Source: Natrinema sp. SYSU A 869
GTDB taxonomy: Archaea > Halobacteriota > Halobacteria > Halobacteriales > Natrialbaceae
Reading direction: 5' to 3'
DNA length: 64,000 nucleotides
NCBI RefSeq assembly: GCF_019879105.1
Contig: NZ_CP082249.1
Coordinates: forward strand, 1,860,001-1,924,000
The position numbers were made by a program, and so were the translations under genes. The first letter of the stretch is position 1. Each line of letters opens with the position of its first letter. Below the pieces are notes generated by a model. The model did no database searches. It was not told where the DNA came from and saw only the letters and a program-made list of their open reading frames with translations. Shown in pieces: positions 38,759-39,835 of this stretch.

Positions 38759-38875
38759 GGCTCGGTTTAGAGGCAGTCTAACCTTGGCTCTTTTCCTTCC
38801 TGCTCGAGGCGCGTGCCGTCATCGGGACACCGATCACAACCCTCATTGGGGGCCCATGAGAGGGAGGAGACGACT

Positions 38876-38974
38876 GGGCGATGGGGCCCACCTGACCCAA
38901 CCGCCGGGCGAGACATCGACAACGTCTGGATCGAGCACAGACACGCCGAGCGTCGTCCGGCTGACGGTCCCTGC
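38876..38974 (+). promoter_or_regulatory. Candidate fluoride riboswitch upstream of the crcB/fluC pair
   Basis: The sequence starts GGGCGATGGGGCCCACC and ends GGCTGACGGTCCCTGC, matching the start and end of the crcB-motif RNA. The expected pseudoknot is GGGGCC (38883-38888) with GGTCCC (38966-38971), six pairs including one G-U. A 9-bp stem forms between 38903-38911 and 38953-38961 (GCCGGGCGA/TCGTCCGGC). The apical part is longer than in known small examples. The first stem (GGCG/CACC) has one C-A mismatch. It ends 13 nt before the first fluoride-channel ATG. Confidence 0.68.
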
Positions 38975-38987
38975 ATGACTCCCAGCC

Positions 38988-39401
38988 ATGGCAGACACAC
39001 ATCCGCCCGTTCGCCTCGAGACGCTCGCGCTGATCGCCGTCGGCGGCTTTGCCGGGTCGAATCTCCGATTCTTCGCGATGGGACTGCTTCCTGACGTGTC
39101 GTCGATCGTTCTGGTCAACGCCGTCGGGAGCGCGGTCCTCGCCTTCCTGGTCTACGAAGCCGAATACGCGGGCCACCTGACCTCGCGGACCCGGCTCGTC
39201 TTCACGACGGGGTTTCTCTCCTCGCTGACGACCTACAGCACGTTCGCGCTCCAGACCGCGCTCGCAGCGAGTCCGCTCGCACTGGGCGGCATCGTCGCCG
39301 CAAACTACGGACTCGGACTCATCAGCGTGCTCGCAGGACGGGCGCTCGCGCGTCGGATCGGCGCTCCGCGGGATGAGCCTTCCGGTGGTGAGACCGCGTG
39401 A
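38988..39401 (+). CDS. crcB: Fluoride channel subunit FluC/CrcB (first)
   Basis: A 137-residue, four-helix membrane protein. Family signatures GFAGSNLRFFAMG, NAVGSAVLAFLV and FLSSLTTYSTFALQT are present. FluC channels export fluoride as dual-topology dimers. Here two divergent copies are arranged in tandem, so they probably form an obligate heterodimer with fixed opposite orientation. The stop overlaps the next start by 4 nt. A fluoride riboswitch candidate lies directly upstream, which supports the function. Confidence 0.93.
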   Translation: MADTHPPVRLETLALIAVGGFAGSNLRFFAMGLLPDVSSIVLVNAVGSAVLAFLVYEAEYAGHLTSRTRLVFTTGFLSSLTTYSTFALQTALAASPLALGGIVAANYGLGLISVLAGRALARRIGAPRDEPSGGETA

Positions 39402-39835
39402 GTACACCGCTCCTTCTCGAGAGCATCAGCATCGGCCGACTGCTCGCTCGAGCGGCCGTCACCGTCGACCCCGAACCGGCCCACGTCGTCGGCACCGGCG
39501 GAGCGATCGGTGCGATCCTCCGATACTGGGTCTCCCAGCGGGTTTCCAGCGGGGCCTCGAGCGAGAGATTCCCGCTGGCAACGTTCGTGGTCAACGTCGT
39601 CGGCAGTTTCGTCTTCGGTCTCGCGGTCTTCGCGGGCGCGGGCGAATCAGCCATCCGACTCGTTGGGACCGGTATCTGTGGCTCGTTCACGACGTTTTCC
39701 TCGTTTTCGGTCGAGACGCTCTGGCTGTACGAGCGCGGCGATCGGGCGCTCGCGGTCGGCAACGCTGCAGCCAATCTCGCGTGCTCGCTCGCGGCGATCG
39801 GTCTCGCATGGGGGCTCGTCGCTGTCGCTCTCTGA
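39398..39835 (+). CDS. crcB: Fluoride channel subunit FluC/CrcB (second)
   Basis: 145 residues. Signatures GTGGAIGAILRYWVSQR, FPLATFVVNVVGSFVFGLAV and GICGSFTTFSSFSVETLWL are closer to the canonical FluC sequence than in the first subunit. The N-terminus has about 25 extra residues before the first helix. The GTG start lies inside the stop of the first subunit (GTGA), implying translational coupling. Confidence 0.93.
   Translation: MSTPLLLESISIGRLLARAAVTVDPEPAHVVGTGGAIGAILRYWVSQRVSSGASSERFPLATFVVNVVGSFVFGLAVFAGAGESAIRLVGTGICGSFTTFSSFSVETLWLYERGDRALAVGNAAANLACSLAAIGLAWGLVAVAL

Follow-up and report, generated by a model that had tools for sequence, protein, structure and literature searches.

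As of 2021, the fluoride-responsive riboswitch of Thermococcus kodakarensis was the only natural archaeal riboswitch determined by experiment (PMC8241225). Control of translation is presumed for it, as it is for the fluoride riboswitches of P. syringae and B. pseudomallei (PMC13273304), which share the aptamer class considered here. The bacterial translational platform usually masks the Shine-Dalgarno (SD) sequence. Initiation at 5′-UTRs does not make use of SD motifs in Haloferax (PMC3986360), and a map of transcription start sites in Haloferax led to the conclusion that haloarchaea do not typically control translation through structured leaders (PMC4983044). In the open-licence literature no report was found of a natural haloarchaeal fluoride riboswitch, nor of any natural riboswitch shown in haloarchaea. 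Rfam full alignments probably already include some haloarchaeal copies from outside the Natrialbaceae, since several pass the cut-off.

The window analysed here, 64,000 nucleotides from Natrinema sp. SYSU A 869, holds an element that is, on its sequence, a divergent member of the crcB/RF01734 class of fluoride riboswitches, placed before two fluoride-exporter genes. We put at about three in four the probability that this leader of a crcB1-crcB2 operon works as such a riboswitch, with fluoride locking the aptamer and freeing the AUG for SD-independent translation. The computed evidence consists of aptamer homology and covariation, a fixed spacing of aptamer and AUG, a specific complementarity of the spacer to helix P3, and a family-wide predicted gain in accessibility of the start. 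The element has the P1, P3, six-pair pseudoknot and pocket residues of RF01734 and its position upstream of crcB/fluC, and differs in having C at position 41 in Natrialbaceae, a P3 insert of 3–177 nt and, in the window copy, a C-A mismatch in P1 and a score below gathering. It is regarded as a variant within a known riboswitch class; a new class is not claimed. The T. kodakarensis switch, from a different archaeal class, is likewise archaeal, fluoride-responsive and presumed to be translational; unlike it, the haloarchaeal leader shows no SD sequence and has a spacer complementary to a P3 strand of the aptamer. Where the bacterial platform masks the SD sequence, the haloarchaeal one is predicted to mask the pre-start segment itself.

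The aptamer extends from G1 to the linchpin U48 (38876–38972; this and all other features lie on the plus strand). A cmscan search of 601 bases around the element gave a full-length match to RF01734 at 38868–38980 (model positions 1–64, 22.7 bits, E 5.8e-4), which is below the gathering score of 34 because of two visible features, the 48 nt inserted into the P3 loop and the mismatched P1 pair. A scan of the whole window at Rfam gathering thresholds returned tRNA only, with RF01734 unlisted, and a profile search of the organism’s own genome with RF01734 at E 0.001 found no match because the long P3 insert impairs its sensitivity. A haloarchaeal model, R1, was built from 30 sequences, the window copy and 29 relatives. 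Its single match in the 5.67-Mb genome was the window copy (68.7 bits, E 2.4e-18); as this copy belongs to the 30 sequences, independent support comes from the RF01734 match and the relatives.

A preliminary description had pointed to a crcB-motif start, GGGCGATG (38876–38883), a motif end, GGCTGACGG..CTGC (38959–38974), and a pseudoknot of six pairs maintained by compensatory changes. All three are present. The 5′ strand of the pseudoknot, GGGGCC (38883–38888), pairs with GGTCCC (38966–38971) through six pairs, one of them G-U. The strands of P1 lie at 38876–38880 and 38889–38893, as indicated by the RF01734 alignment and covariation, and those of P3 at 38903–38911 and 38953–38961, as indicated by folding and covariation. 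The same description had named as contrary outcomes the lack of a covariance-model match and an unconserved pseudoknot in related leaders; a match and a conserved pseudoknot were clearly found.

Covariation was assessed in 85 distinct cores, drawn from Natrialbaceae, from the remaining Halobacteria and from further classes of the phylum; obviously broken copies were excluded. The three helices were 95.6% paired, compared to 85.1% in shuffled and 33–54% in slid controls; 11 of 16 pairs were altered on both sides, and 0/500 shuffles equalled the real set on any measure. The pseudoknot was 99.4% paired, with double changes in four of its six pairs, and P1 was 97.2% paired, with double changes in three. 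Among relatives, C-G has been exchanged for U-A and G-C for A-U in P1. Natrialbaceae have GGGGCC/GGUCCC as their pseudoknot strands; outside the family these strands are GGAGUC/GACUCC, GGGGCU/GGCUCC or GGCGUC/GACGCC. The structure is therefore under selection, which goes beyond what the Rfam match conveys. A further pairing, of linker GACC with GGUC, was dropped, as it is not kept across relatives.

Matches to RF01734 were obtained in 43 of 125 Natrialbaceae genomes. The Rfam cut-off misses most copies in this family, with 8/125 genomes above it compared to 70 with a significant R1 match; orthologs at the same locus bearing C41 (L002–L008) scored 34.7–38.6 bits against RF01734. R1 matched in 101 of 391 Halobacteria genomes, representing 38 of 86 genera and eight families. 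CrcB itself is encoded in 120/125 Natrialbaceae genomes. Tandem aptamers in Natronococcus and Natrialba proved to be apparent only, each being a single aptamer whose P3 insert is very long. Two genomes (L162 in G345, L163 in G392) each carry a pair of distinct fluoride aptamers separated by about 415 nt; a predicted membrane ORF of 68 aa without a Pfam match follows the first, and crcB follows the second.

The long stem-loop in the middle of the element, earlier suspected to be lineage-specific, is an extended P3. In the window it is closed by nine base pairs, of which the proximal 3–5 are conserved and covary (MFE −27.3, z −2.7). The apical insert has a median of 49 nt (range 3–177) in Natrialbaceae; the median is 9 nt for Halobacteria outside this family and 5 nt for the remaining members of the phylum. 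Conservation of the distal structure of the insert within Natrinema is not clear. In three Natrialba leaders (L082, L089, L094) a GGTCGGCT-like repeat recurs in runs within the insert, which reaches up to 177 nt.

At position 41 (38965) the highly conserved U of RF01734 is replaced by C in the window copy, as in 92/94 Natrialbaceae copies, whereas 59/60 copies from the rest of the phylum have T. The pocket residues A6, U7, G8, U38, A40 and G42 are intact in the window copy. So is U48 (38972), the reverse Hoogsteen partner of A40 (38964) in the linchpin pair (PMC8752731), which is T in 82 of the 85 sequences of alignment A2. The change U41A renders the B. cereus fluoride switch unresponsive (PMC11077080); no assay of U41C was found in the literature. 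The C41 form is predicted to bind fluoride, and the window RNA would bind it with Mg2+. The C41 clade is a natural test of U41, a pocket residue thought to be essential. Two Natrialbaceae copies (L001, L010), with which L172 was grouped, have a U41-type aptamer as in other families and were possibly acquired horizontally; the ORF that follows L001 seems to be disrupted.

The first gene, crcB/fluC 1 (38988–39401, 137 aa; PF02537, E 3.8e-13), overlaps by 4 nt the second, which has a GTG start (39398–39835, 145 aa; PF02537, E 1.5e-23). The two fluC/crcB genes reported earlier are thus borne out, and crcB directly follows the aptamer in the leaders examined. Upstream, a promoter is predicted at 38835–38862 by position-specific conservation in 106 leaders aligned on the first G of the aptamer, which share CGCAA at −41 to −37, TCAT at −33 to −30 and GAGAA at −18 to −14. 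The predicted counterparts in the window are a BRE-like CACAA (38835–38839), a TATA-like TCAT (38843–38846) and a WW-like −10 element, GAGAG (38858–38862). This spacing resembles that of haloarchaeal BRE, TATA and −10 WW elements (PMC4983044). Transcription would start about 5 nt before the aptamer, near 38871, and the aptamer is best explained as nearly the whole 5′ leader of the operon. An upstream GGGGGCCCA, considered as a competitor pairing with the pseudoknot loop, was set aside as lying upstream of the predicted transcript start. An out-of-frame ATG in the window spacer (38975–38977) opens a 39-aa ORF overlapping crcB1; GTG occupies the matching position in three relatives (L012, L029, L034).

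The AUG lies 10–20 nt after U48 in 101/101 leaders analysed. In the window, the closeness of aptamer and ATG noted in the preliminary description holds, and the distance of 13 nt given there becomes 15, counted from U48 at 38972. No SD-like run at an initiating distance was seen in the spacers inspected. The spacer is complementary to GGCUG(A)(C), that is, the 3′ strand of P3 and the bases that follow. The complement in the window, CAGCC (38983–38987), abuts the ATG and its partner lies within GGCTGA (38959–38964). CAGYY abuts the ATG in 62/101 leaders compared to 2/161 background starts drawn from 400 kb of five genomes, a contrast that is partly one of leadered vs. leaderless genes, as haloarchaeal starts are mostly leaderless.

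The shuffle and segment controls are free of that fault. The duplex of spacer and 3′ arm averaged −11.1 kcal/mol, compared to −6.7 for shuffled spacers (0/200) and −10.6 when spacers were permuted between leaders (0/200). When complementarity was computed by segment, the P3 3′ strand with UGA alone was favoured (z −19.1 against shuffles), the values for the pseudoknot strand, P1 and the linker being −1.3, +1.8 and +1.4. Spacer helices reach 7–10 bp in many leaders (L002, L009, L055, L126, L174) and only 3–4 bp in about a third. In L008, in which the ATG is displaced (GUCAGCCGACUC directly before AUG), the complement stays with the spacer. The pairing in L166 (GAUGAC/GUCAUC) and L173 (GACGAC/GUCGUC) has shifted register by one or changed along with the aptamer; in L173 a U-to-C change at position 41 is accompanied by A-to-G in the spacer.

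Opening the region from −8 to +3 costs 5.9 kcal/mol in the free leader and 3.5 with the aptamer formed, a gain of 2.4 that drops to 0.7 when spacers are shuffled; these are secondary-structure energies, which take no account of folding during transcription, of molar salt or of the pseudoknot. The difference was positive in 31/33 genera (Wilcoxon p 1e-7), which are not fully independent of one another. The free fold of the whole leader was no better than that of shuffles (z −0.6), a measure that says nothing on the pseudoknot. At the family level, an aptamer strand is mutually exclusive with pairing at the start, and the control of translation initiation surmised earlier gains support.

In the mechanism that we propose, the transcript would begin about 5 nt ahead of the aptamer. 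In the absence of fluoride, the pre-AUG spacer, CAGCC here and up to (G)UCAGCC in relatives, would pair with GGCUGA, opening P3 and the pseudoknot and tying up the mRNA just before the start codon. Binding of fluoride and Mg would lock P3, the pseudoknot and the A40-U48 pair and release the spacer, so that a ribosome could start without an SD sequence and exporter would be produced when fluoride is high. The switch is thus predicted to be ON with fluoride. It is on balance probable that the relatives form a large haloarchaeal clade of natural SD-independent translational riboswitches, in which the strictly conserved GGCUGA acts as start-region antisense, the 10–20-nt spacer is the platform, and C41 of the Natrialbaceae changed together with the pairing. 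Such a clade bears on how a riboswitch acts where leaders initiate without SD sequences, and its dozens of natural variants, clean-loss strains included, are available for the study of that action.

Most fluoride riboswitches that have been studied act on transcription, through a terminator that overlaps the pseudoknot (PMC2864571, PMC11077080). Termination or anti-termination is improbable here, since the spacer between U48 and the ATG is too short for a terminator hairpin and a T-run, and no T-run was seen in the inspected spacers of Natrialbaceae, which are typically GCC-rich; pausing at a short U-tract is conceivable in some other families with TTTT in the spacer (e.g., L177). Somewhat less improbable, though still doubtful, is the proposal that CAGCC is a mere favoured start context of leadered haloarchaeal genes lacking an SD sequence, with the aptamer hindering or helping ribosomes sterically. 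Two pyrimidines precede the AUG in 94% of aptamer leaders, and CAGCC is retained in four Natrinema leaders with a damaged or lost aptamer (L090, L096 as CAGCT, L101, L116). A start context leaves unexplained, however, why complementarity in many leaders extends over 7–10 bp to take in C41 and part of the pseudoknot, persists at a displaced AUG and is limited to a single segment of the aptamer. That the C41 clade has an altered ligand or affinity is very unlikely. The change is clade-wide and adjoins the ligand site, where substitution by A abolishes the B. cereus response, but all other pocket residues are kept, fluoride channel genes directly follow every leader examined, and pairing with the G of a GUCAGCC spacer, seen in 15/26 in-register cases, is another possible explanation of C41.

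For this Natrinema strain, the aptamer might instead be a decaying remnant of a former riboswitch, with crcB constitutive, which we consider unlikely but the most serious of the alternatives. Position 38890 is A in the window copy and G in nearly all relatives, which breaks one P1 pair (C38879-A38890). The anti-P3 element forms 5 bp and, across an internal loop, 4 bp; the resulting alternative hairpin, GGCUG..GGUC/GACU..CAGCC, with GACT at 38977–38980, has −12.3 kcal/mol in isolation, but free folding of the full-length leader does not favour it. No switching is predicted (opening cost 3.6 free vs. 4.6 bound, no accessibility gain), because the free fold is dominated by the long, strong P3 and by a local hairpin at the AUG, CUGCAU/AUGGCAG. 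Within 29 Natrinema genomes, the leaders were read as comprising 17 with an intact core, the window copy with one mismatch, and 11 with the aptamer damaged or lost (G053, G055, G056, G060, G061, G063, G069, G070, G071, G073, G078) yet crcB kept; the strain also has a second crcB pair without an aptamer. Against decay, the other four P1 pairs, all P3 pairs and the six pseudoknot pairs are formed, the residues A6, U7, G8, U38, A40 and U48 are intact, and one other family member, L185, shares the mismatch. Because of the sub-gathering score, the mismatch and the lack of predicted switching, function is less certain for the window copy than for its relatives; we infer that it still works as a riboswitch despite the C-A mismatch.

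The second crcB pair lies on another replicon (L057, contig C2:199420-200083), with TTTATTTTAA just upstream of the start, and is probably leaderless. In other Natrialbaceae, TTTA or TTTT lies about 30 nt before the ATG of several crcB1 genes without an aptamer, as in leaderless genes. In two crcB leaders, L083 (G071) and L081 (G073), a palindromic element of about 80 bp lies within the 3′ arm of the aptamer, with what looks like a flanking TGA repeat. Across the genus, related copies number up to about 40 per genome, with three in the strain’s own genome, and are MITE-like. The pseudoknot in G073 nevertheless has a compensatory change, from C12-G43 to G12-C43.
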